This document shows positions 2,520-62,823 of a stretch of 64,000 bases of DNA, piece after piece. The position numbers and the translations under genes were made by a program. Within the stretch, counting starts at the first letter, position 1; every line of letters begins with the position of its first letter. The notes below the pieces were generated by a model. It made no database searches, was not told the origin of the DNA, and saw only the letters and a program-made list of their open reading frames with translations. Origin of the DNA: Cannabis sativa (taxonomy: Eukaryota; Streptophyta; Magnoliopsida; Rosales; Cannabaceae); assembly GCF_029168945.1 (NCBI RefSeq), contig NC_083607.1, positions 11,054,001 through 11,118,000 of the forward strand. Reading direction: 5' to 3'.

Positions 2520-2560
2520 TGTTGTGAAGTCAAACGCTTGTTATGTAGCAGCTTTCCTCA

Positions 2561-25830: not shown

Positions 25831-25868
25831 ATACTTATCAAGCTGATCCTCTTTTTATTGTTCAACCC

Positions 25869-29877: not shown

Positions 29878-29894
29878 CCATGGCTCTGAGGCCA
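29878..29894 (-). other. Primer-binding site of N
   Basis: On the minus strand it reads TGGCCTCAGAGCCATGG, next to the 5' LTR. This is a mutated form of the initiator-Met site TGGTATCAGAGC. Confidence 0.75.
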
Positions 29895-29896
29895 GT

Positions 29897-31819: not shown

Positions 31820-31824
31820 AAACC

Positions 31825-36540: not shown

Positions 36541-36545
36541 GTTAT

Positions 36546-37288
36546 TGTTGCCCCTGATTTTGCCCAAAATACGTGGACCAACCGGATGATGACGCGTGGG
36601 TGGAAAGGATTTAGCATTTGAATAAAAAACTAAGTCTTCTTTAGCGCAGGATTACCTTAGACATGCCTCCCGGAGAAGGCATGTAAGTCTCGTATGCTCC
36701 CGGAGAGTGAGATTGCTACAAAGCCTCTCCGGGTGGTGTCAGATTCTATCTGAATAGTTATCTCGCATTTAATGCCGCATGGGAGGAGGCGTATTGAAAC
36801 TGCCATATGTAATAAAGTCTGACGACGCAACCCCCAATCTGTACCTACTAGGCTATGATCAATAAAGTCTAGTGACGGCTACTCTGTGAGGAATCACATG
36901 AGTAAAAAAGGATAAAGGACTACCCTCATCAAATCCCTACAGAACCTAGGGATTAGACCTTGCATTACCTATGATATATTCATTGGGAATGTGTGGCTTT
37001 ACTGATAGTTACAGAAATGGATGTACCTTAATTCTGGGGATCACCCTACAAAAATACTATAAATACCCCCCAAACTCATTAAAGAGGGGTCGAGAATTCT
37101 GGGTTCCATAAGAACTAGAAGAGGAAAAACTCACCAAGAACATTCTTTATAATAAATACTATCATAAATACACAGACTCGTGGACTAAGGCTCATTAACG
37201 CCCCAACCACGTAAAAATCTCTCTCTTAATTTCTTACAGCTCTCTAAATTATTGTTATTATATTGGTTGCTGAAAACCTCGGTCAATA
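36546..37288 (+). repeat. 5' LTR of E2
   Basis: Starts TGTTGCCCC. Ends TCAATA where the 3' LTR has TCAACA, so the terminal CA is mutated to TA. A TATAAATA box is at 37058-37065. I count roughly 30 differences from the 3' LTR by eye. Confidence 0.9.
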
Positions 37289-37310
37289 TTTTGGTGCTTT
37301 CATTGAGAGC
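37289..37310 (+). other. Primer-binding site region of E2
   Basis: Begins TTTTGGTGCTTTCATTGAGA right after the LTR. It is the same as in E1 and not the initiator-Met type. Confidence 0.72.
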
Positions 37311-37357
37311 TGAAGAAAGCGTCTGTAAGCACACACTACAACAATGGACATGACCCA

Positions 37358-38122
37358 TTGGTCATAGAGACCCCCATTGCCAATAAGATCGTGGCCAGAG
37401 TCCTGATCGACAATGGGAGTTCCGTGAATCTGCTGTTCAAAGAGGCCTTCACTGCAATAGGCCTAACGGACCAAAACCTTTCAACAAGTGGTTCCCAACT
37501 CACAGGGTTCAATGGAACAACACTTATCCCTATGGGAAAAGTGAGGCTTCCAGTCACCTTGTCCCCGGACACACCCCAGAGCACTTTCAAGTACTGCACG
37601 TTTGTGGTGGTAGACTGCCCAACAACTTATAACGCAATCCTCGGTCGACCGGCCTTGGTGGACTTTGGTGCAGTCACGTCAATACGACACTTGTGCCTGA
37701 AATTCCCAACCCAGGTGGCTGGGATAGGGACTGTGAGGGGAAATCAAGGAGAGGCTAGGCAGTGCTATAACGTTCCTGCCCACCTACCCGTGTTGATGGT
37801 CCGCGAAATTATTGAGCCAGAAATGGCTGGAGAAGATGAGTTAGATCCCCGTGTGGGATCCGAAAAAATTGTAGAACCAATGGAGGACGTCGAGGAACTG
37901 TCGATGTGCGACCTCGACTCCACCAAAGTACTCCGGCTAGGAAAGAGCCTAGAACCGGAGGAAAAAGAAAGAATGATAAAGATGTTGAGGGGTGCCGTTG
38001 ACGTTTTCGCATGGTGCCAAGAAGACATGGCTGGCATAAGTCCCCACGTCCCCACGTCATCACCCATATCCTCAATGTCAACCCGGACATGCCGCCGGTA
38101 TAGCAGAAACAACGTCCCCTAG
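37358..38122 (+). pseudogene. pro: E2 protease region, frameshifted
   Basis: The frame carries the aspartic protease core ARVLIDNGSSVNLL, then TYNAILGRPALVDFGAVTS, typical of Tat proteases, and a linker toward reverse transcriptase. A tandem copy of the 8-mer TCCCCACG (38041-38056) shifts the frame. After the shift, TAG at 38101 and TAA at 38125 lie in the frame of the next ORF. The old gag start codon survives at 37344 but now runs straight into this region and stops after seven codons. Confidence 0.88.
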
Positions 38123-38154
38123 ACTAAATAAAGGTCGAGGCCTTAGAAAAAGAG

Positions 38155-40248
38155 GTGGACAAAGTATTAACGAGTGGCATGATTCAAGATGTCTACTATC
38201 CGGAATGGCTAGCCAATTCGGTCCTTGTGCCAAAGCCTAACGGGACTTGGCGAGTTTGTATAGACTTCACAGATCTAAACAAAGCTAGCCCAAAGGATTG
38301 TTTCCCTCTGCCCAGGATCGACCAGATGGTAGACGCCACCTCCGGATTCAAACTACTGTCCTTCATGGACGCATACGCCAGTTACAACCAAATCAAAATG
38401 CACGTGGCGGATCAAGAGTGCACTAGCTTCAGGACCGATAATGGGGTATACTGTTACCTAGTCATGCCTTTCGGACTGAAAAACGCTAGCGCAACTTATC
38501 AAAGAATGGTGAACTGGATGTTTAACGGCCACCTGGGGCGAAATATGGAAGTGTACGTAGACGACATGCTAGTCAACTCCAAAGCATGCACTAGCCACGC
38601 GGACGACTTAGAAGAATGCTTTGAAGTAGTCCGGAGGTATGGAATGAAACTCAACCCGAAGAAGTGCCCTTACGGGGTTAAGTCAGGGAAGTTTCTGGGC
38701 TTCATTGTCAGTCAGAGGGGGATTGAGGCAAATCCAGAAAAAATTCAAGCTCTCCTGAGCATGCCATCCCCAAAGAAACACAAAGATGTGCAGAGCCTAA
38801 CCGGAAAGGTTGCTGCCCTAAGTCGTTTTATCTCCCGGTCCACAGATAAGTGCATTCCCTTCTTCAACATCTTGAAGAAGTGTCAGAAATTTGAATGGTC
38901 CGACGAGTGCAAGGAGGCATTCAAAAAACTAAAAGAGCACATTGCCAAACCTCCAATCCTGTCAAAGCCCGTTCTCGGAGAGGATTTGTTTCTGTACTTG
39001 GCCGTCTCCGAGCACGCGGTCAGCCCAGCCTTAGTCCGGGAAGAGGAGAAAACTCAGCATCCCATGTACTATGTCAGCAAGCGCATGATAGGGGTGGAGA
39101 CGCAATACCCAGTCATCAAAAAACTGGTTTTTTGCCTCCTAATGGCCTCGAGAAAATTGAGACCCTACTTCCAAGATCACCCAATCAAGGTATTGACAAA
39201 CCACCCACTCCGGCAAGTCCTGCAAAAGCCAGAGGCGTCCGGAAGGCTCCTCAAATGGGCAATGGAGCTAAGCCAATTTGACTTGCACTACATCCCCCGC
39301 ATTTCCATAAAGGGACAGGCGTTAGCAGACTTTATCACGGAGTGCAATGAAGCCGAAGCTACCGCAAACATACCCACACCATCAGTCCCAGCATGGAAAG
39401 TATTTGTAGACGGAGCTTCCAACGAGAACGGATCCGGAGCGGGGGTCGCAATGATATCTCTGAGTGGACTCCGACTCAAGGCAGCCCTACGGTTTGACTT
39501 CTCAGCTTCAAACAACGAGGCTGAATATGAAGCCTTGATAGCAGGGCTAAGACTAGCAAAAACTATAGGGGCCAAAAGAGTAGAGGTCTACAGCGACTCC
39601 CAGCTGGTAGTGAACCAGGTGTCGGGAGAGTATCAGACGCGCGGAGAAAGAATGGCCGCGTATGTAGCGATAGTCCGGGAACTGCTCCACGAGTTCGCGG
39701 ACTATAAAGTGGAAAGAATCCCCAAAGAAAAGAACGCTCATGCGGACTGTCTGGCTAAGTTAGCTTCGGACAGTAAAATTGAGAAACTCGGGGTAGTACC
39801 CGTGGAACGCTTGGCAGAGCCAAGCATCAAAGTAAAAGAGGCCATAACAACAGTTGTGCAAGAACCCAGCTGGATGGTCCCCATCATAGAATACATAACA
39901 AAAGGTGAGCTGCCCCAAGAAAGGGCACTGTCCAGAAAGATTCAGTATCAGGCTCACTATTATGTGATGATGGACAAAATTCTCTATCGAAGAGGACTCA
40001 GCATGCCTTATTTAAGGTGTGTATCGGACCCTGAAGCTAAGCAAATTATGCTAGAGGTCCACGAAGGGTTCTGTGGAGATCATACCGGAGGACCGAGTCT
40101 CTCAAAGAAAATATTGAGACAAGGGTACTTCTGGCCAACAATGAAAAAAGATTGCATAGACTATGCCCAAAAATGTGATTCGTGCCAAAGGTTCGCAAAC
40201 ATACCGAGAGCTCCCCCCAATGAGATTACCCTGATGACTAGTCCCTAG
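38155..40248 (+). pseudogene. pol: E2 reverse transcriptase, two RNase H domains and integrase zinc finger
   Basis: Reverse transcriptase has WRVCIDFTDLN, FMDAYASYNQI, MPFGLKNASATYQ and the catalytic VYVDDM box (about 38555). The gypsy RNase H (about 38950-39330) looks degenerate; its first catalytic Asp is hard to place. A second, archaeal-type RNase H follows (39391-39770) with FVDGAS, NNEAEYEALI, VYSDSQLVV and NAHADCLAKLAS, so all catalytic positions are kept. The integrase HHCC finger (about 40057-40190: VHEGFCGDHTGG, then CDSCQRF) ends the frame at TAG 40246, probably a changed Trp codon. Frame is maintained beyond it. Confidence 0.93.
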
Positions 40249-41103
40249 CCCTTCGCGGTCTGGGGGATAGATCTTATTGGGTCCCTGCCAACAGGAAAGG
40301 GAGGAGTAAAGTATGCAATAGAAGCAGTAGACTACTTCACCAAATGGACGGAGGCTGAGCCGATGAAGACTATAACTGCTAAAAAAGCACTAGACTTTGT
40401 TGTTAAAAACATACTGTGTCGCTATGGCTTGCCTCACAAAATAGTCTCTGACAATGGAAAGCAATTTGATTGCGAAGAGTTCACTGACTTCTGCAACCAA
40501 CACAGAGTTGTTAAAAGCTTCTCCGCGGTGGCAAGGCCGCAAACTAACGGACAAGTAGAAGCAGTCAACAAATTCCTAAAGGTCACCCTAACGAAAAAGG
40601 TGCTGGCCTGCAAAAACAACTGGCCTGAAGAATTGCCGAGAGTGTTATGGGCCTACCGGACGACCCCAAGAACTACGACCGACCACTCGCCTTTCTCAAT
40701 GGCGTACGGTTGTGAAGCAATGGTCCCGGTAGAAACGTTATTCCCGTCCCACAGGAGAACGACCTATGATCCAGCCACAAACCAAGCTTTGTTATAGGAA
40801 GCGCTGGATCAAGTTGAAGAGCTCCGAGACGAGTTTCAAATGCGAATGGCAGCTTATCAAAAGAAGGTGACTAAATATTTTAACTCCAAAGTTAAAAACA
40901 GAAAATTCACTATTGGTGATATGGTCTTAAGAAGAGTCTTCCCAGCCACTCAAGAACCCGAAGTGGGGGTACTTGGGCCAAATTGGGAAGGGCCATATGA
41001 AATCGAAGATGAGATCAGCTCCGGAACCTATAAGCTAAAAAGGATGGATGGAACCATTGTGCCAAGGGCCTGGAACGCCGATCATCTCTGGAAGTATTAC
41101 TAA
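40249..41103 (+). pseudogene. int: E2 integrase core and C-terminus
   Basis: Same frame as the previous piece. Catalytic positions are visible in WGIDLIGSLP (first Asp), IVSDNGKQF (second Asp) and NGQVEAVNKF (Glu). It then has ELPRVLWAYRTT, a TAG at 40795, and the C-terminal GPNWEGPYEIEDEI and MDGTIVPRAWNADHLWKYY up to the TAA at 41101-41103. No chromodomain, as expected for the Tat group. Confidence 0.9.
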
Positions 41104-41287: not shown

Positions 41288-41470
41288 GAATATGCATCAA
41301 TATGATCATATAAAAAATATCCTGACCCAAAGGGCAGGTCCAAAAGAAACAATATGCATCAATATGATCATATAAAAAATATCATGACCCAAAGGGCAGG
41401 TCCAAAAGAAAAAATATGCATCAAAAGGATCATATATATGAAATATCCCAGCCCTAAGGGCAGGTAAAAA
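41288..41470 (+). repeat. Three tandem copies of a 62-bp unit
   Basis: Each copy has ATATGCATCAA, GATCATATA, then ACCCAAAGGGCAGGT. The spacing is 62 bp and the third copy is more diverged. It lies in the spacer between pol and the end of the antisense gene, where Tat-type elements often have tandem repeats. Confidence 0.85.
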
Positions 41471-41853
41471 AAAATATATATAATACAAAGGACCCGGGGA
41501 AAGACCATAAGTAATTGTCTCCCCTTAGAGAATAAAACAGCTACATACTTAAGATTGTCTTGAATAAAAGAAAAATAGTTGTAGAAAAAGAAAAAAAAAG
41601 AGATATAATCTTGGTAAAATGGGCTGGACTCAGCGGCCTAATCAATACGCGGAGGAAGACGAGGGCCCCGGCGTGCTTCAAGCATAGCATCAAGCCTCTT
41701 CTTCTTCTCCCAAAATTTGGCAAGAGCCTCCTCAGGCTTGGGATAAAAGTCAAGCTTAATGTTTTGGCCATTTGACTGCCAGGCCATATAGGTGCCATCG
41801 TCGAAGCATTTAACGCAGTTCTTGCAAGAAACGGGGGTCAGGCGCTCATCTCT

Positions 41854-44213
41854 TGTAACACCCCGATTTCCCGAGATGTCACATAGGATAGTCCGTATAA
41901 AACAATTTAATAAGATAAAGACAAACAAATACTTCTTTATTGAAAAATATCCAAGCATGAGATCTCATTGTTTAAAACAAAATACTTTTAGTACTGTAAA
42001 CTTAAATAAGAACTAGTTAAGTCAAAATAATAGATCCAAAATGTTTAGCAGTTAAAAAAAAAAACATTAAAAGCAAAATACTGTGCCAGCCCCCTAACAT
42101 GCGGTCCACGCCTCGAGCTCTTCATTCTCACTGCTTAGCCTTACCCTTACCTGCACACAGAGTACCTGTGAGCTAACACCCAGTAAGAAGAGCTATGTAG
42201 GACATAACCCTCCTAACTAGTTACTTGACATAATTTACTCTTTAATATTACTCAACAGTAATTCACATTCCATAAATATATCCACAACGCATGTTGTTCT
42301 CACATGCACACATCAAGTCTCATACCGCACATTATACTCACATACGATAATCAACTATTCTCTCATGTTGATCAGACATGAGGTAACCTACCCTGCCTTG
42401 TGTTATTCTCACACTTGGCATCCAACAGGGCAATTAATTACCATAAGTTGTACTCACCCATGACAATGTTATAACCTGCAAGTGTTATGCTCACACAACT
42501 GACAAGACCCTAATATTATTCTCATGCTAACGATGCTCACAAAATATAAGGAAATCACAACACAATCAAATTAAATAACAAACCAACCCAAGTTGTATGC
42601 ATAACATACACCCTGTGTACAGATGTCCACTCTTCTTACCTCAGTTGCTAAGACCACACTTGCTACCTCGAGCACCTCAACGAATTTCCTTGTTGAGAAC
42701 AAGATCCTAGACATTCATTAACACAACAATACACTCAAAATACATTCAAGTATGAATCTCTAAACTCATACAGAAACTTACGCAAAAATACGTAACACAT
42801 AGGTCCATTTCACTTGCATGACACACCATACATAAGCATTTATTATTTTGATTCACACAAACATATTGCATGGACTCAAACAAACATTCTTAACGTAAAA
42901 CATGAATTCATACAACACATTTTTACGTAAAATTTACTAAAATACTATTTATTCTTATTAAAGTCCAAATAAATAGTTAATTAATCCCAATAATTATAAT
43001 AAATACCTACAGCAACCAATAAATAATAAAACCTATTCCATTCAATATCATAGACAGTATATGGTATTTCAAAAATACATTTTACTATTTTAACAACACT
43101 TATTCATTTTTCATAATTAACTTAAGCATTAATTAAGTAAATTCATGAAAAATACCAAAATTGATTAAAAACCGAATCTAACTCTTCTAATACACTTTAT
43201 AATCTGCAATAAGTCATAAATAATTTTCTTTGAATTTTCTAAGCAACCTAGGTATTTTTCATAATTAAAATAAGAAATAACATCAATAATTCTTGAAAAA
43301 TACATAATCGCCTGAAAATTCAATCTACCAATTTTATAACAGTTTGCATATCATCGCCCATCATATAAAATAAATTTATATTTTTCTGAGCAACCTAAGT
43401 ATTTTTTATAATTAATCTAATAAATAACACAAATAATTCATGAAAAATACAAAATTAACCAAAATTTGAATCTACCAATTTTGCAATAGTTTATATCTCA
43501 TAACGAATCATATAAAATATATTTAGATTTTTCTGAGTAATCTAAGTATTTTTCTTAATTAATTTAACAAATAAACCAAATAATTCATAATAAATCAAAT
43601 AATTGCAAGAAAATTATCAAACTTCATAGTAGGCCTAAGAACACCTAGCACAAGTCAAGAACTGAAAGAAAATCGAAAAATAACCTCCAGAAACCCCTGA
43701 ACGGAGTGTCGCCGGAGTTCTCGTCGGTTTCGTCGCCGGTAAAGTGTAACTTTGTCTCCGATTGCTCTTGAAGCGTCCTTTCGATTGGGGAAGCTCTCCA
43801 CAATGCTCAGGACCTCAAAACAATCAAGAAAAGTGGTCCGAGAAGGCAGATCGGGGTTGTCTTCTTCGTTGGCGGTGTACCGTCTTTAATGGAGTCAAAA
43901 TTTTGGATTTTCGTTTTGGACGTTAAAGCTTCGTTTTCTTACGTCAAAAACAATCCTTAGGGTCCCATGCACTCAAATATAACCTCCCTTGACCCAAGAA
44001 CAAGCTTAAACACGTTCGAATTCGACTCCGTAACTAAGCCGCACCTTTGAAGCTTCAAAAATGGCGAATCTTAAAACGACGACTTCCGCCCCTTATACCA
44101 CGTTAAAAAGCTTCCTTAGGTCGTATATAAGTGATCCCAAACCCCCACGTTCACCCAGGTTGCACTCCGATTGAAGAAACAAAAATTTTCGGTATCGTAT
44201 ACGCCGTATACGT

Positions 44214-44270
<57 letters not shown>

Positions 44271-44437
44271 GGTTCTTTGTTTTGTGTGTACGAAAATAGA
44301 GCTTAAAACCTATTTTCTATCGTGTTTAAACCCAAGCAAAATATCGCATTGAACCGAAGTGGAGCGATTCCCATTCCACAAAAATAGGCATTCGGTTCGT
44401 GCATATATAGTTCGTATATAACAACAGTAACAATAAC

Positions 44438-44474
<37 letters not shown>

Positions 44475-44803
44475 TTAAATATACCCTTTAACACTATAAT
44501 AATATTTACCCATATTATTAGACCAAAATAATAATCCCAATATTATTATAAGTTAACATTCATCATTGTTATTATTCCCACACTAATAATAATATGTACC
44601 AAAATCAAACAATTCACACACCCATATAATAATAGCCAAATATATATATTTATTAGGCATTATGCACATGCCAATAATATCATATCATCACAAAGAAAAA
44701 TCTCATGCATTTTTAAATCCATAAATATGTAAAATAATAAAAAAAAATACTCTCAACTAAATAAAATTACAAAAATACCCTTTCGGAGTTAGCGGATATT
44801 ACA
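41854..44803 (-). repeat. 3' LTR of E3
   Basis: 2950 bp; on the minus strand it begins TGTAATATCC and ends GGGTGTTACA. Contains (CT)n at 44215-44267 and an AAT tract near 44436-44473. A purine-rich stretch (AGAGAGGGATAAT on the minus strand, about 44816-44804) lies just outside and is the likely polypurine tract. Confidence 0.92.
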
Positions 44804-44840
44804 ATTATCCCTCTCTAAAAGAAAATTTCGTCCCGAAATT

Positions 44841-45749
44841 TTACTCAAATAATTCTGGATATTGTTCTCGCATATCAGACTCAAGCTCCCAAGTAGCTTC
44901 CTCAACCACACTGTTTCTCCATAGGACTTTCACCAAGGTAATAGTCTTATTTCTCAAAATCCTATCTTTTTGATCAAGAATCTTTATCGGGCGTTCATTG
45001 TAAGATAAGTCTTCCTGCAAACCCAGTGTTGCATAGCTCAAAACATGTGATGGGTCTGACACATATTTCCGGAGTTGAGATACATGAAATACATTGTGCA
45101 CCCCAGATAATGATGGCGGTAAAGCTATTCTATAAGCTACACTGCCTACTCTGTCCAATATCTGAAATGGACCAACATATCTAGGACTTAGTTTCCCTTT
45201 CTTGCCAAATCTCTTCACTGAGAGTCCTTTTCGTGGTGTCACTCGAAGAAACACATGATCACCCACTTCGAACTCAATGTCCCTCCGCTTCAGGTCTGCG
45301 TAAGATTTCTGTCTGCTCTGAGCTGTGATCATTCTAGCCCTGATCTTCTGAATAGCTTCGTTGGTGTGCTGAACTGCATGTGGCCCTAGGAGTTTGTTCT
45401 CTCCCAACTCATCCCAATGCAGTGGAGACCTGCATTTTCTTCCATACAACATCTCATAGGGTGCTACCCCGATAGTAGACTGATAGCTGTTGTTGTAAGA
45501 AAATTCAATCAAAGGCAGGTATTTGCTCCATGATCCTTGGAAATCTATCACACATGCCCTCAACATATCTTCCAAGATCTGATTTGTTCTCTCAGTCTGA
45601 CCATCTGTCTCTGGATGATATGCAGTGCTGAACTTCAATCGAGTTCCCATTGCTCTCTGTAAGCTTTCCCAAAAAGATGAAGTGAACCGAGCATCTCGAT
45701 CACAAACAATAGAATACGGTGCCCCATGTAATCTCACAATCTCATTCAC
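44841..45749 (-). pseudogene. int: E3 integrase C-terminal half and chromodomain
   Basis: Starts in the integrase core at [21 protein letters not shown] (Asp) with [19 protein letters not shown] (catalytic Glu). It then has a GPF-type segment ([16 protein letters not shown]), [13 protein letters not shown] and a chromodomain at the end ([17 protein letters not shown]). Chromodomains bind histone marks and steer insertion. The frame is displaced by one base from the upstream pol piece, at about 45755-45775. Confidence 0.92.
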
Positions 45750-45756
45750 ATAAAGT

Positions 45757-47778
45757 TCAGCAAAATAAATGGTCCATGGAGTAAGTCATGCGTACTGGTA
45801 GAAAATGGGCAGATTTTGTATACCTATCGACGACTACCCAAATGGCGTCATGTTGCTTTGTAGTCTTAGGTAACCCAGTCACAAAATCCATGGAAATCTC
45901 TTCCCACTTCCATTCAGGGAGCTTCAGTGGTTGTAATAATCCCGCTGGTCTTTGATGCTCTGCTTTAACTTGTTGACGTGTTAAGCATTTGGCCACAAAT
46001 TCAACTACATCCTTTTTCATACCAGGCCACCAATACAATGCTTTTAGGTCATGGTACATTTTAGTGGTCCCGGGATGAACTGAATAAGGTGTAGTATGAC
46101 CTTCTACCAATATCCCCTTCTTGAGCTCATCATTATCGGGCACATAAATTCGTCCCTTGAACCGAATTAATCCCGTGTCTGATATTTCATAATCTTTGGC
46201 GTTACTATTCAAAATTTCTTGCTTTAGTTCACTGAGCTTTTGATCTGTCGTCTGCCCCTCCTTAATTCTTTCTAAAAAAGTGGATTGAAGTGTGACCTTT
46301 GCAAGTTGCCCTGTAATAAACTCTATACCAGCTCGTTCCATGTCTTCCACTAATTCCCTTGATACTCCTTGTAAAGTGGAAACTAGTCCGGGACCTCTAC
46401 GGCTGAGTGCATCCGCTACCACATTGGCTTTACCGGGATGGTACATTATCTCGCAGTCGTAGTCTTTGACCAACTCCAACCATCTTCTCTGCCTCATGTT
46501 TGACTCCCTCTGGGTGAAAAAGTACTTTAAACTCTTATGATCGGTGTAGATTTCACATTTCACTCCATAGAGATAATGACGCCAAATTTTTAGTGCAAAA
46601 ACCAATGCGGCTAACTCTAGGTCATGTGTCGGGTATCTCTGTTCGTATTCTTTTAATTGTCTTGAAGCGTAAGCAATTACCTTCCCTTCTTGCATTAGAA
46701 CACAACCCAACCCTTTTTTAGATGTGTCACAATATACCGCAAATTGTCCCTCTTCTGTTGGTAAACTGAGGATTGGTGCTGAAATAAGTCTATTCTTCAA
46801 CTCTTGGAAGCTTTGCTCACACTTGTCTGACCAGGAAAATTTTAGATTCTTCCTAGTTAATTCTGTTAAGGGTGTGGCTATCTTTGAGAACCCCTCAACA
46901 AACCTTCTATAATAGCCTGCTAAACCCAAAAAGCTTCGAACCTCTGAGGCGGTCTTTGGTCTAGGCCATTCTTTCACTGCAGCAACCTTAGCAGGATCTA
47001 CTTTTATTCCCCCGTTAGTGACAATGTGGCCCAAAAATGCAACCTCGGACAACCAGAACTCACATTTTGTGTACTTAGCATACAATTGATGTTCTCTCAG
47101 TCGCTGTAAGGTCAAGCGTAAGTGCTCCTCATGTTCCTCCTCTGTCTTAGAATAAATCAGTATATCATCTATGAATACAATGACAAACTGATCCAGATAT
47201 TCCTTGAAGACTCGGTTCATGAGGTCCATAAAAGCTGCTGGGGCATTTGTAAGTCCAAATGACATCACCATGAACTCGTAATGCCCGTATCTCGTTCTGA
47301 AGGCTGTCTTCGGTATGTCTTCATTTTTGATTCTTAGCTGATGGTATCCTGAACGAAGATCAATCTTAGAAAATACCTTTTTTCCTTGAAGCTGGTCAAA
47401 CAAGTCGTCAATCCTCGGTAATGGGTACCGATTCTTTATAGTCACCTTGTTCAGTTCTCGGTAATCTATGCACATTCTCATAGTACCGTCTTTCTTTTTA
47501 ACAAATAGAACTGGTGCGCCCCACGGAGAGTAGCTAGGTCTGATAAACCCTAACTTAAGCAATTCTTCCAATTGTATTTTGAGTTCTTTCAATTCAGATG
47601 GTGCCATCCTATATGGTGCGCGGGAAACTGGTGTTGTTCCGGGCACTAATTCTATCACAAATTCGATTTCTCTGTGTGGTGGTAACCCGGGTAACTCCTC
47701 TGGAAATACATCAAGAAACTCAGCAACTACCCGTGTTTCCTCCGGCTTTCTTTCAATTTTCTTGGTGTCATCAACCAC
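45757..47778 (-). pseudogene. pol: E3 reverse transcriptase, RNase H and integrase N-terminus
   Basis: Domains in order: reverse transcriptase ([45 protein letters not shown], catalytic [13 protein letters not shown]); RNase H ([41 protein letters not shown]); the integrase zinc finger (one C-x2-C Cys replaced, CLTRQQ) and the start of its core ([10 protein letters not shown]). The frame is the same as that of gag-protease, so only the TGA at 47799 separates them. It ends early through a frameshift at about 45757. Confidence 0.93.
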
Positions 47779-47796
47779 ATTAACTAGATACCCTAA

Positions 47797-49410
47797 TCAC
47801 CCACGCTGCAATAGTTGCCCAGCCTTCATTGCCGAAATAATAGGAGTGCGGGGTTTCTTTCCTACCCCCCTGAACTCGAAAGTCTCTCCATCTTCTGGTG
47901 TGAAAACAACTTTCTTTTGCTTGCAGTCAATTGATGCTCCATATTTGGTAAGAAAATCCATGCCCAAGATTACATCAAAATCAAATAAATCTAATACAAT
48001 CAGGTCTACAAATAATTCTCTACCATCTATCCTGACAGGTATACCCCTAAGCCAACTTCTAGAGATTACAACCTCCCCAGATGGTAACATGGTCCCAAAC
48101 CCCACAGTAAATAATTCACTCGGTGCATTTATATGATTTACAATTGTGCTAGCAATAAAGGAATGAGTTGCACCAGAATCAAACAAAACTTTACAAGTGG
48201 TGTTGGCCATAGGAATCTGACCTGATACAACCGAAGGACTGGCCTCAGCTTCTGCTTGAGTGATGGCAAAAACTCTAGCTGGAACATACTTGTCATCTTT
48301 CTTGGGTTTTGCTCTGTTCCCAGTCTGTCCCCACAGTGGGCAATTGCGTTTGATGTGTCCTTCTTTTCCACATTTGTAGCATGCTTTTGCGCGACACTCG
48401 CCGAGATGACGTTTGGTACATTTAGGGCATTCTGGAATGTTTCGCCCACTGCTGCCATTAAATCGTTGGTCGTTATCACTTTTGTACCTCTTGTCTTGAC
48501 TTGGCTGCCCGAACTGGTCCTGTCCCCGTTTCTTGTGGTCATTAGAATTGGCTCCACCTTTCTTAGATTCTCTCCTGGCAGCATTTTCCTTCCAAATTTT
48601 GTTTTCACTCCGCTCAGTCGTAAGAGCCATTTCGACAACTTGAGCATAACTGAATTGACCCCTTGACACAATTTCCACATCTCGAGCAACCATTGGTTTC
48701 AGGCCCTCCACAAATCGATGTGCTCGCACTCTATCAGTAGGTACCAGATCTGGAGCAAATTTCGCCAATCTATCAAATTTTTGTGCATACTCAGTCACAG
48801 TAAGACTCCCTTGGACTAACCCAGTAAATTCATCGACCTTTGCTCCTAGAACTGTTGAGTTATAATACTTCTCATTAAAGACCCTTTTGAAATCGTCCCA
48901 GTTCATGGTATCTACATCCTTTGTTTGTTCCACCACCTCCCACCAGATACGAGCATCTTTCCTCAGCATGTAAGATGCACACTTCACTCGGTCATTCCCA
49001 TCCACCCTTAGCATCTGCAAAATGCTTTCTATGCGACTTATCCACTCCTCAGCCACTACCGGGTCTATGCCTCCCTCAAACTCAGGTGGGTGTTGTTTTC
49101 GAAATCTCTCTGCTAACAACTCATGTCTAGCCTCTGTAGCAGGATATACCACTGCAGCTGGTGGGTCTCTATTTTCTGCATCTTGCCTTATTTGGACTGG
49201 CGGCTCCGGTTGACGTCTCAGCTGACGAAGTTCTTCATCCTGCCTATGAATGATTCCTTCCAGTGCGGCAATGCGCTCTTCCCATCCCTGTGGTGCTTGA
49301 GGTGGTTCATTGATCCCTCCATCATCTCGGCCTTGGCCTTGGCCTCGACCTCGACCTCGACCCACTCTAACTGACCTTCTAGGAGGCATTTCTAAACTCC
49401 TGAAACACAC
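47797..49410 (-). CDS. gag: E3 gag and aspartic protease
   Basis: Polyprotein N-terminal part that would form the particle and cut itself. The likely start is the Met of MPPRRSVRVGRGRGRGQG (about 49389); a further Met lies seven codons upstream. The gag core (EFEGGIDPVVAEEWISRIE, MLRKDARIWWE, KYYNSTVLGAKVDEF) spans about residues 90-240. A CCHC zinc knuckle, CYKCGKEGHIKRNC, is near residue 345. The protease core is VLFDSGATHSFI (about residue 410), then ILGMDFLTKYGASIDC. It ends at TGA 47799-47797; downstream pol is in the same frame, so this stop is probably a mutation within one gag-pol frame. Confidence 0.93.
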   Translation of the reverse strand: MCFRSLEMPPRRSVRVGRGRGRGQGQGRDDGGINEPPQAPQGWEERIAALEGIIHRQDEELRQLRRQPEPPVQIRQDAENRDPPAAVVYPATEARHELLAERFRKQHPPEFEGGIDPVVAEEWISRIESILQMLRVDGNDRVKCASYMLRKDARIWWEVVEQTKDVDTMNWDDFKRVFNEKYYNSTVLGAKVDEFTGLVQGSLTVTEYAQKFDRLAKFAPDLVPTDRVRAHRFVEGLKPMVARDVEIVSRGQFSYAQVVEMALTTERSENKIWKENAARRESKKGGANSNDHKKRGQDQFGQPSQDKRYKSDNDQRFNGSSGRNIPECPKCTKRHLGECRAKACYKCGKEGHIKRNCPLWGQTGNRAKPKKDDKYVPARVFAITQAEAEASPSVVSGQIPMANTTCKVLFDSGATHSFIASTIVNHINAPSELFTVGFGTMLPSGEVVISRSWLRGIPVRIDGRELFVDLIVLDLFDFDVILGMDFLTKYGASIDCKQKKVVFTPEDGETFEFRGVGKKPRTPIISAMKAGQLLQRG

Positions 49411-49594
49411 AAATCAAAACACATCAAGATCATTTTGATCATCAATTTTACATGAAAATAATGTGACCCTCTCGCATGAAGAAATTTAAGGCAACTTAAT
49501 TATAAGTAATAACCACTTACAGTACAGTGAGTCGAGCTCGTCATGGCGGTGAACTTTACATGTTAGGGCTAACCACATTCTTTAGGACCGTATT

Positions 49595-49606
49595 GCTCTG
49601 ATACCA
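49595..49606 (-). other. Initiator-Met primer-binding site of E3
   Basis: Reads TGGTATCAGAGC on the minus strand, three bases inside the 5' LTR. Confidence 0.93.
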
Positions 49607-49609
49607 TAT

Positions 49610-51968
49610 TGTAACACCCCGATTTCCCGAGATGTCACATAGGATAGTCCGTATAAAAAAATTTAATAAGATAAAGACAAACAAATACTTCTTTATTAAA
49701 AAATATCCAAGCATGAGATCTCATTGTTTAAAACAAAATACTTTTAGTACTGTAAACTTAAATAAGAACTAGTTAAGTCAAAATAATAGATCCAAAATGT
49801 TTAGCAGTTAAAAAAAAACATTAAAAGCAAAATACTGTGCCAGCCCCCTAACATGCGGTCCACGCCTCGAGCTCTTCATTCTCACTGCTTAGCCTTACCC
49901 TTACCTGCACACAGAGTACCTGTGAGCTAACACCCAGTAAGAAGAGCTATGTAGGACATAACCCTCCTAACTAGTTACTTGACATAATTTACTCTTTAAT
50001 ATTACTCAACAGTAATTCACATTCCATAAATATATCCACAACGCATGTTGTTCTCACATGCACACATCAAGTCTCATACCGCACATTATACTCACATACG
50101 ATAATCAACTATTCTCTCATGTTGATCAGACATGAGGTAACCTACCCTGCCTTGTGTTATTCTCACACTTGGCATCCAACAGGGCAATTAATTACCATAA
50201 GTTGTACTCACCCATGACAATGTTATAACCTGCAAGTGTTATGCTCACACAAGCAGCAAGACCCTAATATTATTCTCATGCTAACGATGCTCACAAAATA
50301 TAAGGAAATCACAACACAATCAAATTAAATAACAAACCAACCCAAGTTGTATGCATAACATACACCCTGTGTACAGATGTCCACTCTTCTTACCTCGATT
50401 CTTTAAGACCACACTTGCTACCTCGAGCACCTCAACGAATTTCCTTGTTGAGAACAAGATCCTAGACATTCATTAACACAACAATACACTCAAAATACAT
50501 TCAAGTATGAATCTCTAAACTCATACAGAAACTTACGTAAAAATACGTAACACATAGGTCCATTTCACTTGCATGACACACCATACATAAGCATTTATTA
50601 TTTTGATTCACACAAACATATTGCATGGACTCAAACAAACATTCTTAACGTAAAACATGAATTCATACAACACATTTTTTACGTAAAATTTACTAAAATA
50701 CTATTTATTCTTATTAAAGTCCAAATAAATAGTTAATTAATCCCAATAATTATAATAAATACCTACATCAACCAATAAATAATAAAACCTATTCCATTCA
50801 ATATCATAGACAGTAAATGGTATTTCAAAAATACATTTTACTATTTTAACAACACTTATCCATTTTTCATAATTAACTTAAACATTAATTAAGTCAATTC
50901 ATGAAAAATACCAAAATTGATTAAAAACTGAATCTAACTCTTCTAATACACTTTATAATCTGTAATAAGTCATAAATAATTTTCTTTGAATTTTCTAAGC
51001 AAACTAGGTATTTTTCATAATTAAAATAAGAAATAGCATCAATAATTCATGAAAAATACATAATCACCTGAAAATTCAATCTACCAATTTTATAACAGTT
51101 TATATATCATATCCCATCATATAAAATAAATCTAGATTTTTTTGAGTAACCTAAGTATTTTTCATAATTAATTTAATAAATAACACAAATAATTCATGAA
51201 AAATACAAAATTAACCGAAATTCGAATCTACCAATTTTGCAATAGTTTATATCTCATAACTAAGCATATAAAATATATTTAGATTTTTCTGAGTAATCTA
51301 AGTATTTTTCTTAATTAATTTAACAAATAAACCAAATAATTCATAATAAATCAAATAATTGCAAGAAAATTATCAAACTTCATAGTAGGCCTAAGAACAC
51401 CTAGCACAAGTCAAGAACTGAAAGAAAATCGAAAAATAACCTCCAGAAACCCCTGAACGGAGTGTCGCCGGAGTTCTCGTCGGATTGTCGCCGGTAAAGT
51501 GTAACTTTGTCTCCGATTGCTCTTGAAGCGTCCTTTCGATTGGGGAAGCTCTCCACAATGCTCAGGACCTCAAAACAATCAAGAAAAGTGGTCCGAGAAG
51601 GCAGATCGGGGTTGTCTTCTTCGTTGGCGGTGTACCGTCTTTAATGGAGTCAAAATTTTGGATTTTCGTTTTGGACGTTAAAGCTTCGTTTTCTTACGTC
51701 AAAAACAATCCTTAGGGTCCCATGCACTCAAATATAACCTCCCTTGACCCAAGAACAAGCTTAAACACGTTCGAATTCGAGTCCGTAACTAAGCCGCACA
51801 TTTGAAGCTTCAAAAATGGCGAATCTTAAAACGACGACTTCCGCCCCTTATACCACGTTAAAAAGCTTCCTTAGGTCGTATATAAGTGATCCCAAACCCA
51901 CACGTTCACCCAGGTTGCACTCCGCTTGAAGAAACAAAAATTTTCGGTATCGTATACGCCGTATACGT

Positions 51969-52035
<67 letters not shown>

Positions 52036-52202
52036 GGTTCTCTGTTTTGTGTGTACGAAAATAGAGCTTAAAACCTATTTTCTATCGTGTTTAAACCCAA
52101 GCAAAATATCGCATTGAACCGAAGTGGAGCGATTCCCATTCCACAAAAATAGGCATTCAGTTCGTGCATATATAGTTCGTATATAACAACAGTAACAATA
52201 AC

Positions 52203-52252
<50 letters not shown>

Positions 52253-52589
52253 TAATAATATTAAATATACCCTTTAACACTATAATAATATTTACCCATA
52301 TTATTAGACCAAAATAATAATCCCAATATTATTATAAGTTAACATTCATCATTATTATTATTCCCACACTAATAATAATATGTACCAAAATCAAACAATT
52401 CACACACCCATATAATAATAGCCAAATTTATATATTTATTAGGCATTATGCACATGCCAATAATATCATATCATCACAAAGAAAAATCTCATACATATTT
52501 AAATCCATAAATATGTAAAATAATAAAAAAAAATACTCTCAACTAAATAAAATTACAAAAATACCCTTTCGGAGTTAGCGGATATTACA
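49610..52589 (-). repeat. 5' LTR of E3
   Basis: 2980 bp, nearly identical to 41854-44803. Most of the length difference lies in longer microsatellites: (CT)n at 51970-52032 and the AAT tract at about 52203-52260. Confidence 0.92.
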
Positions 52590-53340
52590 TCTCTCTTAGC
52601 CTTCTTCAAGGCCTAGTCTCTAAAGTCCTTCAGCTCCTTCAACTCCGCGGCCAGGTTGGCCTTGGACTGCAAGTCTGCCTGGTGCAACTCTTCTAGGGAC
52701 TTCACCTTGGCATCCATTTCGTCCATGGCCTCCTTAGCCTCCCGAAGCTCACGCCGAGCCTTGGCGATGGCCTCACCCTCTGCCTTTAGCGCCTCCCGAT
52801 GCCGCGCCTCCAGCTCAGGCTCCCTCCGTTAGGCCTCCTCTCGGAGCTTCGCCTCCGCCTGGGCTTCCCTCTACTTAGCCTCCTCCTCGAGCTTCGCCTT
52901 AGCAAGGGCCTCCCTTCGATCAGCCTCCTCCTGGATCGCCCGCCTTTCAGAAGACAGGTCCCGCAGGATCCTCGCGACCTCGTCTATGCCCCCAAATTCG
53001 GACATGACGAAGCCGTGATTGACTATGGTCTTGGAAAGGCAGCTGGTCTCCGCAGTAATCTAAAAAAAGGAGACCAGAGTAAGATCGAATGCCTTAGACA
53101 AAATATCAAGGAAAGAAATAAGCCACAAATACCTACCGCAGCCATGGCGTTGCTGATGTCTTGAACCTGGTAGACGGAGTTCAAGGAGGCACAAGCGGCA
53201 TACCGTTTAGGCGGGAACTGAATCAGATGGGAGACATACTCGCTGGTCATCTCCGAGGCAAAGGGAACCAAGGTGGGCCCAAGGAAACGATTGAACCAGT
53301 CCGTCAGTGGGTCCATGTTCAGATCCCACGGATTCCGAAA

Positions 53341-53442
53341 GGCCTCCTCGTTGAGAGTGTTTTGCTGCTCCTCCCGTAAGACCCTCTTCAAGGCCTCCTC
53401 ATTGAGAGTGTTTTGCTACTCCTCCCGTAAGACCCTCTTCAA
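53341..53442 (-). repeat. 51-bp tandem duplication in the antisense gene
   Basis: Two adjacent 51-bp copies (53341-53391 and 53392-53442), 17 codons each, in frame. The second copy carries the TAG (53418) where the first has a CAG. Confidence 0.9.
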
Positions 53443-55353
53443 GGCCTCCACCTCAGCATGCCCCCGGCTGTACTCATCGAGGGCGTAATTGTATTTGGCT
53501 ATGTGGAGATTCTGCCTCTCCTCGTCACCCGGGACTGGAGTCAACACTATGCTGTGGGGCACAGTATATTCCTCCGCCTCGTAGGGAATCCCGGAGTCAT
53601 GGCTCGGGGCCGGAGTGTCCACCCTGCGGGGCCGCTTAGAAGGCTCCTCTTCCACCATCTTTCCCTTTCGCTTATGCTCGAGGGCGGCCGGCTCCTCTTC
53701 TTCACCTTCTTCAACTTGCTCAAGAACCTCCTCCTCGTCCACCATGAGAATAGTGCCCGAAGGGGCACTGGAGGAAGACCTCCCGGGAGTGACCAACTGA
53801 GAAGAAGCAGAAGGTGGGGAAGCATTAGGACTGTAGGCTCCAGCAAGAGTGGCCAAGAGTTCATCCATGGGTCTGGCTGCTGCACAATAAAATAAGTGGT
53901 AGAACATTCGCGAGAACAGTATACACTTAGCCAAAAAAGGCAATAAAGCTAATCCTACCCTGACTCTCTAATTTGGCCCTAGCAAAGTCCCGAATCATAG
54001 CACTGGCTTCATCGTCCCCGAGAAAGCTTCCCGAGGGAAGGAACCAACTAGAGGACAAATGGGCTGAATGGTCCAAGGGAATGGGCGCCGGAGGTCCAGA
54101 ACCCATCCGGGACCGACCTAAATAATGGCCTAAATGGGAGAAATAATACTCCTTGGCATGATTCCCCCACCAGGTGGAAGGCATCCTAAACCTACGGAGA
54201 CGTTCATCGAACCCTATAGGCCTAAGGCGGGTATACTCACGGACAGGAGGAACATAGTGTATTATTAAAGGGGACTTACCAGAACCCGAAGTGCTGGCAT
54301 CGGGAGCCCCAGTATTTGGTACGGGGACCACGGGCTTGGGTCTGGGGGTCCTCCGCTCCAATGGAGCCAATTCGGAGGGCCCTTCCAGCGGTCGCCTGGG
54401 CCTTAATGTAAGCCAACTCCTGTTCCCTCTTGAAGAGGTACTTCTGGTACTTATCTTCCGCCACGGCGATGATGTCATCCCGGAATACTTTCTCTGCGGC
54501 TGGAGCCCTCACATTCGGGCAAATGACTTTGGAAAGATTGTAGTCATCCACCGACTGATGCCCCAGGATCAGCTTGGCCTTCCGACAATGCTCGGTCGTG
54601 ACCAACTCTCCGACATCAAGGGCCTTCTTGTCGTATGTGGCGAAGGTCTTGGCCTGTTGAAGAAATATTTGAGTGGGTTCGGTCCGCATGTAAGGGGGGA
54701 TCCTAACCCACTTCGTGAGAAACTCTGGATGATCCGTGGCCTGGAAACCGGAGGAGAAGAAGAAGCGGTGACGGTATTCCTTCACGTGCTTCTGATAATT
54801 AAAAGGGACCGGGCCCTCATTCAAAGGATGGTCCCGGAGACCGTAAAAGCCGTCCTTAAGAGTATCTCCCTTTTTAGGGATAGAAACGAGTTCATAAAAA
54901 TATAAAATTTCTGCCGGACTAGGCGAGCGGGCAGCGTAAAAAATGAACAAGCTTGAGAGCAGGCGGTAAGCTTGAGGAATAAGTTGATATGGCGCAAGGC
55001 CGACAAATACAAGGAAGTTAATAAAATAATCTTGGAGAGGAAGCATGGCCCCGGCCATCAGGTGTGTCTGGCTCCAGGCTCCGAAGCCCCCGTAGTTATG
55101 GTTAGGCGTCTCCTCATCCCGGGGCGGCCGGAGGTAGGTCCCGGTGGTTGTAAGCTTGATGCCTGCCACCACCACGATCTGTTCCAACTGATGAGGGCAG
55201 GTCAGGGTGCAGCGAAGCTCAGCTGCTTCCCACCCGTTGGCACGGGACTTGTGCCCTTCTTGGGCCACAGGACCCTTCATGACCTCCTCCAGGGTTGTCA
55301 GACGCTTCTCTCCCTTCTTCGAAGACTTAGAACCGGATGCAGACATTTTGGTT

Positions 55354-56046
55354 CTGAAAAAGATTGAAAAAATCTAGCAGTCAAGCCCCAAACCAAACCC
55401 TAATTCACAAAGGGAATGGGGGTCCCCTAACCGTTGGAAAGAGGCCCCCTCCGGACACTTGCCAAAAAAGAAAGCCTCAAAGGATTTTCCTTGACAAGAG
55501 TTAGGTGCAAGAATCCCACAGATGGTGACATTTCGAAAAGTAAAGAGAAAAGGAAAAAAAATAATCCCAAAAAAGAAAGCCTCAAAGGATTTTCCTTGAC
55601 AAGAGTTAGGTGCAAGAATCCCACAGATGGTGACAAAGTCTACTCTAAACCTTAAAGTGTCATTACGTGGGACGAAGGTGGGTCCTCAACCAAAATATGG
55701 TGAAAAGAAGTATTCTAAACGCAAAAGAAGAAGAATCTACCGCGTTATGCAGAAACTCAAACAAAAATTCCCAGAAATTCAACATCCAACCCAGAAAAAA
55801 ATAAATAAACAGTAAAGCATGCTATATGAACAAATAGTCTAGTGTGCAAGACACGAGGGACTTACATGAAGTTTGGAAGCTGGACGTTGGTGTTGATCGC
55901 CGGTAGAAAGTTGACTGGCAACGGCGAAGGAAAACGAGCAGGAAATCTATGGTGTTTAAGGTTTCTCTTCTCTCTGGGGAACTCTGAGGAAATTTTGGCA
56001 AAAATGCTGAAAGTAACCAAATGAAGTAAGAAGGTTGGCTTTTATA
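55354..56046 (-). promoter_or_regulatory. Promoter and 5' UTR intron of the antisense gene
   Basis: On the minus strand a TATAAAAG box (56046-56039) is followed by a leader. The leader has a donor ATGTAAGT (intron from 55865) and an acceptor TTTTTCAG (to 55354), eight bases before the ATG at 55346. The leader intron is 512 bp and contains two 69-bp direct repeats (55462-55530 and 55567-55635). This arrangement looks like a cellular gene and does not depend on the LTR promoter. Confidence 0.6.
55462..55635. repeat. Pair of 69-bp direct repeats
   Basis: Two essentially identical 69-bp copies at 55462-55530 and 55567-55635, starting 105 bp apart (core AAAGCCTCAAAGGATTTTCC). They lie in the proposed leader intron of the antisense gene. 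Confidence 0.93.
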
Positions 56047-56375
56047 GGCCAGAGCATGTGTGAGACAGCTGTGATCAGCCACCATCGAACGACTTGGATA
56101 GCAATCGATTCGAATTCCATCCATCCAACGATTGGATTGAATTTTCATCCAGGCGGTAAAAACGTTTGAGTACCCGTCTGACACCCATTAATGCGTCGTA
56201 TCAATAAATGGACAAAAAACGAATCGACGCCTGCAAAAAGTGAATAACTGCAATAATGAAGGTCATTAATACACCACCATGCGCCCAAAGCACGTGCCAG
56301 GAAACTGATAAGGCAACCGAAGGCATCTAGGCAAGCCTTGTTCATTTCATAATTAAACAAGGCTTGGGGGGTAAA

Positions 56376-57118
56376 TGTTGCCCCTGATTTTGCCCAAAAT
56401 ACGTGGACCAACCGGATGATGACGCGTGGGTGGAAAGGATTTAGCATTTGGATAGAACAGCTAAGTCTTCTTTAGCACAGGATTACCTTAGACATGCCTC
56501 CCGGAGAAGGCATGTAAGTCTCGTATGCTCCTGAAGAGTGAGATTGCTACAAAGCCTCTCCGGGTGGTGTCAGATTCTATCTGAACAGTCATCTCGCATT
56601 TAATGCCGCATGAGAGGAGGCGTATTGAAACTTCATACGTAATAAAGTCTGACGGCACAACCCCCAATCTATACATACTAGGCTATGATCAATAAAGTCT
56701 AGTGACGGCTACTCTGTCAGGAATCACATCAGTGAAAAAGGATTAAGGACTGCCCTCATCAAATCCCTACAGAACCTAGGGATTAGACCTTGCATTACCT
56801 ATGATATATTCATTGGGAATATGTGGCTTTAATGATAGTTACAGAAATGCATGTACCTTAATTCTGGGGATCACCCCTCAAAAATACTATAAATACCCCC
56901 CAAACTCATTAAAGAGGGGTCGAGAATTCTGGGTTCCATAAGAACTAGAAGAGGGAAAACTCACCAAGAACATTCTCTGTAATAAATACTATCATAAATA
57001 CACAGACTCGTAGACTAAGGCTCATTAACGCCCCAACCACGTAAAAATCCCTCTCTTAATTTCTTACAGCTCTCTAAATTATTGTTATTATATTGGTTGT
57101 TGAAAACCTCGGTCAACA
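56376..57118 (+). repeat. 3' LTR of E2
   Basis: 743 bp, TGTTGCCCC to TCAACA. TATAAATA is at 56888-56895. It is preceded by the polypurine tract and followed by the GTTAT duplication. Confidence 0.92.
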
Positions 57119-57123
57119 GTTAT

Positions 57124-59338: not shown

Positions 59339-59355
59339 CCATGGCTCTGATACGA
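59339..59355 (-). other. Primer-binding site of O
   Basis: On the minus strand it reads TCGTATCAGAGCCATGG, beside the LTR start at 59358. It is a one-base variant of the initiator-Met site. Confidence 0.82.
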
Positions 59356-61086
59356 GTTATTGGAATTATTTTACCAGGTTCTTAGATCTACTCACAAGTA
59401 TGTTGATTAACAACCTAAATAGGAACTTTTAAAACGAATATAAATAAACACATATAAAGAAAGAGAAACCTTACATTGGGTGCAGCGGAATAATATCTCT
59501 CCTTCCACTCAGATCTCTAACCCTTGTATCCTTCCTGTTGCAGAGTATTATCAAGATCTGAGCTCGAATGTCCTTCTTTTGTTGAAACTGGATTCTTCAC
59601 AGTCTTCCTCACTATGATTGAGGTACTACTTGCTGTGTGTGGGCACTACTCTATCGCTTAGAGATTTCGAAACAACGAAGAAGGAAGAGAGAGAGAGAGT
59701 AGTGGCGGCTCAGGAAAATTTCTATGAAAGGAATGAGATGCAATTGTGTTGTGTGTATTTCCTGAAGTCATTACTTTCTATTTATAGAATACCACACAGG
59801 GTTAGGGTTGAATTACTTGGCATTAAAATAATAAAAAAATTAAATGATAAAAGGCACTACATGTGGCCAGCCATGTCAATATGGAAATAGGCCTCACATT
59901 TGCAACTTTCCTATTTTATCATTTCTGTTTTCCATTTTCTCAGAAACTGCCAATTTTCACATTCAACCATATAAATGTCAATTCTAACTATTTAATAACT
60001 ATAATTAATTATTAAATAATATTATCATATATTATATTTATTAATTATACTAACCAAAGTCTCTTAATTAATAAATATACCCTATAAACTCTTTCTTTGC
60101 AGTTTCGCCCTTAATAAGTGATGAATTCACAAATAGACATAGTCTAACTTGAGAATTATAATTGATTAATTAAAACCAATTAAATGAGTCTTACAAGTAG
60201 CATTGTCTCAACTAGTGTGGGGACCATGGGCCTATATATCTGAGCTTCCAATAAGAAGATTAAGAATTTACCTCTTAAATTTACTGACTTATTAATTCTT
60301 CGTTGAATCCACGCATAGAACTTAGAATTGCACTCTCAGCTATACAGAACGCTCTATATGTTCCACCATATAGATACGCTATTAATTATCCATTATTATA
60401 ATCCTAATTTGATCAATGATCCTCTATATAGATGATCTACACTGTAAATGGATTAAATTACCGTAACACCCTACAATGTATTTTATCCTTAAAACACTTA
60501 ACCCCGTATAAATGATATTTTCAGCTAAGTGAAATGAGTACTCCACCATTTATTTTCGTTTGGTTAAGCTAGAAGGAAATCATCATTTACTTTCTATTCG
60601 CTAGATAGAAGCTATAGATTCTATATTTATGTTAGCGCTCCCACTTAATTGCACTACCGTGTTCCCAAAATGTACGTATCACCCTGACCCAAAAGTAGGC
60701 TTAACTAACAAATCAAAGAACACGAATAATACTCTTGAGATTGAACCTAATCATATCAGGATTAAGATCATTTGATCTAGGATCAACTAGATGATATTGA
60801 ATTTAATAGATATTACGGTAAGTTTAGGCCACGTTCGGTAACCATTTTAAAAATGGTTTTTTATTTTTTTAATCAAAAATTTGAAAATACAAATAGAAAT
60901 GGTGTTCGATAAAATCAATTTCACTTTTTGTTTTAAAAATTTAAAATCAAAAGGAGTAAATTTTAAAAATAGATTTTTGATGATTTTAAAATTTTTAAAA
61001 ACACTTTTTTTTTACTCTTGCTTCGCTCTCTCTCGTTAATCTTCGTTCTTCCTCAATGAGTCTTCCATGGCTTCAGCTATTCTAGG

Positions 61087-61090
<4 letters not shown>

Positions 61091-61164
<74 letters not shown>
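61091..61164 (+). repeat. (CT)n followed by (AT)n microsatellite in H2
   Basis: About 30 CT units, then about seven AT units, soon after an ATG-containing stretch (61056-61075) near the 5' end of H2. Confidence 0.95.
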
Positions 61165-62820: not shown

Positions 62821-62823
62821 TGC

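Follow-up and report, generated by a model that had tools for sequence, protein, structure and literature searches.

All the recently active Retand retrotransposons surveyed have antisense coding regions in the stretch from pol to the 3′ long terminal repeat (LTR), as stated in the available text of the survey (Vicient 2025, PMC11963269), with a TRP28 domain in 97% of the clusters and with Smc-type open reading frames (ORFs) also recorded in the region. According to the available text of the two published plant surveys, unspliced ORFs were predicted by ORF finders. A locus of this kind is described here from a 64,000-nucleotide stretch of the Cannabis sativa genome (contig NC_083607.1, positions 11,054,001 to 11,118,000, forward strand; the whole stretch is called the window), in which the retrotransposon E2 carries an antisense gene. 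This gene resembles the Retand TRP28 ORFs in place, strand, region length class and possession of a TRP28-like region; however, whereas the survey used ORF Finder and its main text is without the word intron (PMC11963269), the TRP28-like region and a coiled coil look here like exons of one spliced gene. It is highly probable, in our assessment, that Cannabis Retand-type elements carry a selected, spliced antisense gene with its own promoter.

A comparable case is gene23 of the maize element Grande, reportedly the subject of Gomez-Orte et al. 2013. Both gene23 and the gene described here are antisense and lie between pol and the 3′ LTR, and gene23, an accessory gene, is transcribed from its own promoter and encodes a nuclear protein, according to the available text of PMC7264820. 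The deltaretroviruses HTLV and STLV (human and simian T-lymphotropic viruses) likewise possess an antisense gene with a spliced mRNA (PMC8622228, available text), a likeness in working; unlike theirs, the gene in E2 has a promoter-like region within the internal region and several coding exons. Introns are known in the plant LTR elements Ogre and EVADE too (PMC12786077 and PMC6317226, available text), but those belong to the sense transcripts of the element, whereas the introns here lie on the antisense strand and in another gene. In the open-licence literature searched, no account was found of introns in a Retand antisense gene, nor of a structure with several introns that unites a TRP28-like region and a long coiled coil.

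Anatomy of the antisense gene

The gene occupies the strand opposite to pol and is interrupted by a second element, E3. Its parts, in the order of the gene, are:

56039..56046, minus strand: TATA-type box TATAAAAG of the antisense gene
55354..55865, minus strand: leader (5′ untranslated region, UTR) intron, 512 bp, GTAAGT...TTTTTCAG, acceptor CAG
53959..55346, minus strand: coding exon A from the ATG, TRP28-like region, with an E2-specific frameshift near 54360
54192..54279, minus strand: coding part of exon A, starting with a conserved GTAAGT, annotated initially as an 88-bp intron
53880..53958, minus strand: first coding intron, 79 bp (82 bp with the second AG of a NAGNAG acceptor), phase 1
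53137..53879, minus strand: coding exon B, with a single in-frame stop (53418) within a local tandem duplication
53060..53136, minus strand: second coding intron, 77 bp, phase 0
52590..53059, minus strand: coding exon C, part one, coiled coil, with three in-frame stops
41854..52589, minus strand: E3, nested Ty3 element inside exon C
41638..41848, minus strand: coding exon C, part two, with a CxxC tail kept in relatives, up to the stop

The initial annotation of the window had proposed a spliced antisense gene in a Tat-type Ty3 element, with a TATA box, a leader intron and four coding exons in phase for 908 codons. The box (56046-56039), the leader intron (55865-55354) with its donor and acceptor signals, and the 79-bp (53958-53880) and 77-bp (53136-53060) GT-AG introns are present at the positions it gave; E3 does lie between two copies of TCTCT, and the stop does end at 41638. 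The proposal of an intron-bearing gene with a conserved promoter-like region, interrupted by E3, was borne out, but the coding exons number three, not four, and the copy is not intact. As read from the sequence, the corrected model consists of three coding exons separated by two introns and preceded by an intron in the leader. The phase of the 908 codons holds, 838 lying before E3 and the remaining 70 fitting the 211 bp after it, but the frame is not open: in-frame stops stand at 53418, 52873, 52831 and 52615, where other readable genomic copies have sense codons in 4/4, 31/32, 32/33 and 39/39 cases, respectively (position 53418 is a gap in 36 of 40 copies). Because the 908 codons hold four stops, the E2 copy of the antisense gene is dead.

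The antisense ATG stands at 55346. Within the leader of 1,070 bp, one TATA-type, one GTAAGT and two acceptor-type matches were found on the antisense strand and none on the sense strand, and no ordered triple of TATA, GTAAGT and acceptor arose in 2000 Markov resamples of the leader. The leader intron of E2 contains a duplication of ~70 bp within 55460-55640, seen by eye, and at 512 bp it is longer than that of 29 of 30 copies. In the same part of the element, the stretch from the TATA box to the 3′ LTR (56060-56375) is 83.6% conserved relative to E2, the exons 82.5-86.5% and the 5′ UTR exon 76.4%.

Splice signals and selection in genomic copies

Copies of the gene were collected from the 770.7-Mb assembly containing the window, which lies on contig C7. 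The sample comprises the first 40 exon-B matches in listed order, out of at least 221, with none dropped; the copies were oriented and mapped onto E2 coordinates, and features that a copy does not cover were omitted from each count (one copy, L009, was mapped in part for the splice-site survey and fully for the survey of lengths and frames). TATAAA is retained in 24 of the 28 copies covering the box, and the ATG in 24 of 31. The leader intron keeps its donor GT in 30/30 and its acceptor AG in 29/31 covering copies, and measures 420-467 bp in 29 of 30 measured copies, with one of 1653 bp. Similarly, the first coding intron has a donor GT in 39/40 copies and, in all 40, an acceptor AG at one of its two sites or at both, while GT-AG bounds the second in 34/40. 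Their lengths vary across copies, from 79 to 84 bp for the first intron (a multiple of three in 7/40) and from 72 to 96 bp for the second (a multiple of three in 23/39). The initial annotation had made its case dependent on conserved splice sites and open exons in relatives, and the 40 copies display them.

No intronless copy was found among those measured (30 for the leader intron, 40 for the first and 39 for the second coding intron), nor among 13 further copies inspected. One candidate for a processed intronless copy, C10:16109480, was rejected, as its intron is retained and what is missing is part of exon B just before it. Around the gene, integrase lies downstream on the opposite strand in 33/40 copies and on the same strand in 0/40, and an E2-type LTR lies upstream in 25/40, counts in which a missing integrase or LTR can be truncation, the copy stretches ending ~1.5 kb past exon B. 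The tail sequence of E2 is present in 40/40 copies and is joined within 60 nt, without E3, in 38/40; some copies are interrupted or rearranged. Protein relatives match the minus strand of E2 exon by exon, and the 77-bp junction is the best among 17 GT-AG pairs for 9 of the 11 relatives tested.

Selection on the frame was assessed with Nei-Gojobori estimates for pairs among 41 sequences (E2 and the 40 copies), of which 720-818 were usable; pairs of related copies are not independent, which makes the figures descriptive, and the contrast between frames serves as the control. Median ratios of nonsynonymous to synonymous divergence (dN/dS) were 0.144 for the first part of exon A, 0.228 and 0.203 for the rest of it, 0.196 for exon B and 0.213 for exon C. 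The same exon columns read one or two bases off gave 0.95-1.52, and the three introns yielded pooled pN/pS (the corresponding ratio of proportions) of 0.62-0.87 in every frame, with none strongly favoured. Stops occur at 3.9 per 1000 codons in the antisense frame, at 18.0 in the facing sense frame and at 40-56 in the other four (maximum 55.7); by sequence, three of the 41 have no in-frame stop and the others have one to seven. Indels relative to E2 are divisible by three in 153/216 cases in exons and in 92/367 in introns. Judged by these patterns of sequence change, all the proposed exons evolve in the manner of protein-coding sequence read on the antisense strand, and the introns do not; conserved GT-AG introns thus separate exons under purifying selection.

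Rival readings and the encoded protein

Among the alternatives, the one that survives best, though we regard it as improbable, replaces the spliced gene with a set of two or three antisense ORFs, each unspliced: one, TRP28-like, would correspond to exon A, and another, with the coiled coil, would start at an ATG inside the gene, near 53868. Published scans for ORFs without splicing would record them in this way. That ATG is where gene models P0008, P0009 and P0015 begin, and in younger copies the second intron mostly keeps the frame open. However, the coding signal reaches the donor at 53958 and resumes at the acceptor, exons A and B are joined in P0020 and P0025, and upstream of exon A there is a conserved leader intron. 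Further, exon C starts mid-frame beside the second conserved GT-AG pair, and the length of that intron is not a multiple of three in 16/39 copies.

The younger copies bear on the same choice. A genome search based on P0009 gave at least 177 matches, many with exons B and C in a single open frame, and 13 copies of this younger subfamily (L049-L061) were read over the exon B/C part, the second intron of L058 being left out of the lengths. Among them, the homologue of the first intron keeps GT and AG and measures 78, 79, 80, 82, 83 or 84 bp with a varying T run, the lengths falling into the three classes modulo 3 as 5, 5 and 3. Because these lengths span all three frames, the first intron cannot be translated through in all young copies, which argues against separate ORFs and is evidence that it would be spliced. 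The homologue of the second intron starts with GTAAG, is T-rich and measures 93 bp in 11/12 copies and 81 bp in 1/12; on its sequence it is ambiguous in the younger subfamily, where it could be exitron-like. In the 40 other copies, length and coding signal favour an intron over the exitron reading.

A non-coding antisense RNA that regulates the element, for example via double-stranded RNA, with the frame as a relic, seems very unlikely. Antisense transcripts of LTR elements may trigger silencing (PMC7264820, available text), but all exons show frame-specific purifying selection across the 41 sequences; an RNA function may coexist with the coding one. Least credible is the exact model of the initial annotation, refuted as far as a constitutive 88-bp intron (54279-54192) is concerned: GT-AG and phase fit in E2 itself, with GTAAGT at 54279 in 37/39 readable copies and AG at the other end in 32/38, but the stretch is coding and under selection in relatives, whose frame the removal of 88 bp would break.

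The stretch measures 88 bp in 38/39 copies, its pooled pN/pS of 0.34 in the exon frame rises to 1.08 and 1.16 when the frame is shifted, and P0002, P0006, P0020 and P0025 align through it without a gap; the alignments of P0021 and P0016 reach 54197 and 54218 within it. The intron was needed because E2 carries its own frameshift near 54360, where its length differs by 2 modulo 3 from 36/39 copies. Phase agreement at four joins had been offered as unlikely by chance, but at this one it is weak evidence, because in E2 an open frame is regained with 8 of the 27 GT-AG pairs spaced about 60-150 bp apart.

The GTAAGT itself (54274-54279, minus strand), kept in 37/39 readable copies, may nevertheless have a role. 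It sits in a Gly-Lys-Ser stretch, and coding alone may account for its conservation; the third positions of its first two codons are invariant, a level that 29 of 291 comparable third positions reach. The donor at 54279 has the same phase as that at 53958, 321 nt downstream of it, and gene model P0007 departs near it and appears to use it. It may thus be an alternative 5′ splice site, which would skip 107 codons in frame.

The protein searches scored only candidates sharing short words with the query. Exon A as the query recovered seven relatives, of which six carry the name Cannabis; P0007 as the query gave 13 with itself included, and a profile search gave 12. The initial annotation had suggested a comparison with Transposase_28 (TRP28, PF04195), and a match over the same stretch exists in E2 and 4/7 relatives (E 0.0043-0.14), all below the Pfam cut-off. 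This domain is predicted to bind DNA (PMC11963269, available text). In six relatives the product of exon B has an acidic stretch and an RKRK run, exon C of P0009 encodes a predicted helix of 134 residues with a mostly high predicted local distance difference test score (pLDDT 84-96), and the CxxC tail is found in seven relatives. No match was obtained in a sequence search of the PDB, in PADLOC (one protein), in Rfam (36000-58000), or among viral contigs and bacterial and archaeal contigs. The protein may be a nuclear, oligomeric accessory factor linked to nucleic acids. Genome annotation lists pieces of this transposon gene among the host genes (P0013 and RefSeq LOC133 models), one of them as 'inactive protein RESTRICTED TEV MOVEMENT 2-like'.

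Several observations weigh against a spliced antisense gene of the form preferred here. All named protein relatives are Cannabis gene models. The TRP28 match of E2 is weak (E 0.013, 16.1 bits versus a cut-off of 26.2), and the domain was not found in eight further relatives scanned. AlphaFold2 gave no usable fold for the N-terminal region (pLDDT 36.6), and the P0009 model is low overall (53.6). At the 77-bp junction, P0007 and P0016 (part of whose flanks is missing) fit other joins slightly better. The exact 79-bp pair is never the sole best of six, ranking 4, 2, 3 (a tie), 4 and 2 for five relatives; P0025, P0006 and P0007 prefer the 82-bp form and P0020 a neighbouring donor, while P0002 is indifferent. 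Where exon C begins, the contrast between frames is less marked (0.43 versus 0.76 and 0.98), short stretches being noisier. The second-intron homologue of the younger subfamily could be translated, its length being divisible by three in 12/12 copies and its frame open in 11/12. Finally, neither AATAAA nor six similar hexamers were found between the antisense stop and the end of pol.

The host element and the course of the gene

By its sequence, E2 is a Tat/Retand-type Ty3 element. Besides the antisense gene, it comprises:

36546..37288, plus strand: 5′ LTR, 743 bp, ends placed by eye
37307..38122, plus strand: protease region, a weak Asp_protease_2 match below the cut-off, without gag
38128..40248, plus strand: reverse transcriptase (RT), RNase H, additional RNase H (RVT_3) and integrase zinc domain
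40249..41103, plus strand: integrase core and C-terminal end of pol, broken by a stop
41289..41479, no strand assigned: 62-bp tandem repeat, 3.1 copies, between the stop of the antisense gene and the end of pol
56376..57118, plus strand: 3′ LTR, ends placed by eye

The element is flanked by a target-site duplication, GTTAT (36541-36545 and 57119-57123). Its LTRs differ by 25 transitions and 7 transversions over 742 sites, a divergence (K) of 0.045 that corresponds to about 1.7 million years at 1.3e-8 substitutions per site per year. E3 has its own duplication, TCTCT (41849-41853 and 52590-52594), and, with K = 0.0165 between its LTRs, inserted later than E2; these LTRs are ~2.95 kb long, 97.2% alike and contain repeats at 147-bp spacing, and long gag-protease and RT ORFs of E3 lie on the minus strand.

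In the pol ORF of E2, RNase H covers residues 257-384, RVT_3 residues 427-546 and the integrase zinc domain residues 635-689, which places the additional RNase H between RNase H and integrase. The order RT, RNase H, additional RNase H, integrase is the one given for the angiosperm Tat branches Ogre and Retand (PMC6317226, available text). The region from pol to the 3′ LTR, ~4.5 kb once E3 is excluded, carries the antisense coding exons, and the LTR of 743 bp falls inside the Retand range; in Retand, this region is given as 2,933-6,566 bp with antisense ORFs and the LTRs as 315-1,194 bp (PMC11963269, available text). The assignment to Retand rather than Ogre would rest on the antisense ORF and the region length. 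No gag was found in E2: the ORF preceding RT has no gag domain, and there are 31 bp where a related element at 1-3192 has ~2.3 kb. E2 consequently lacks the gag of an autonomous LTR retrotransposon; GAG is also missing from seven published Retand clusters (PMC11963269, available text).

The related Tat element at 1-3192 of the window is partial and on the minus strand, with an LTR ~73% like that of E2; the ~2.3 kb between its LTR and protease region, not in E2, holds ORFs that may be gag. Elsewhere, 23950-33456 and 57118-64000 contain dense direct and inverted repeats from other elements, up to 98.7% alike.

In the picture proposed here, the stretch from pol to the 3′ LTR holds, on the opposite strand, a spliced gene that is complete in itself and would be transcribed by RNA polymerase II. 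The promoter of this gene would lie just inside the 3′ LTR, where 56060-56375 is a possible promoter region on sequence grounds, followed by a 5′ UTR intron of ~0.45 kb. Three exons, separated by two short introns, would then supply the TRP28-like region and a linker (A), an acidic and a basic region (B), and the long coiled coil with the CxxC tail (C). During replication, the gene would be copied within the sense RNA of the element, in which its splice sites are backwards and would not be removed, and each new insertion would thereby keep the introns. The initial annotation had offered this explanation; its logic is sound and the absence of intronless copies fits antisense introns not being spliced from the sense RNA, although the argument is one of inference. 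After insertion, the antisense promoter would yield its own mRNA, which would undergo splicing and translation. The product, some 900-950 residues long, would most likely serve the element in the nucleus as an accessory or regulatory protein. Transcription, splicing, translation and the nuclear role are inferred. E2 itself would be an old, dead copy of the antisense gene, cut by E3.

More tentatively, the Retand antisense 'TRP28' and 'Smc-like' ORFs across flowering plants might be exons of one ancient spliced gene. Such a gene might produce at least two proteins through the donors at 54279 and 53958, with the 107 codons in or out, and its introns might act as an RNA-level regulatory component of the retroelement, one that is inherited and outlasts retrotransposition because it lies on the unpackaged strand.

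As judged from its sequence, the locus presents an intron-bearing antisense gene under selection in a known kind of element. It would offer a natural example of how introns can persist through retrotransposition when they lie on the antisense strand. A plant retrotransposon lineage with a wide distribution is characterized by antisense ORFs, which two surveys, in their available text, handled as unspliced. Should these ORFs prove to be genes of several exons, their proteins would have been read piecemeal in such surveys, with the N-terminal domain and the coiled coil counted apart, and plant genome annotation would hold their fragments as host genes. Their expression would then be testable in existing RNA sequencing data via antisense split reads.

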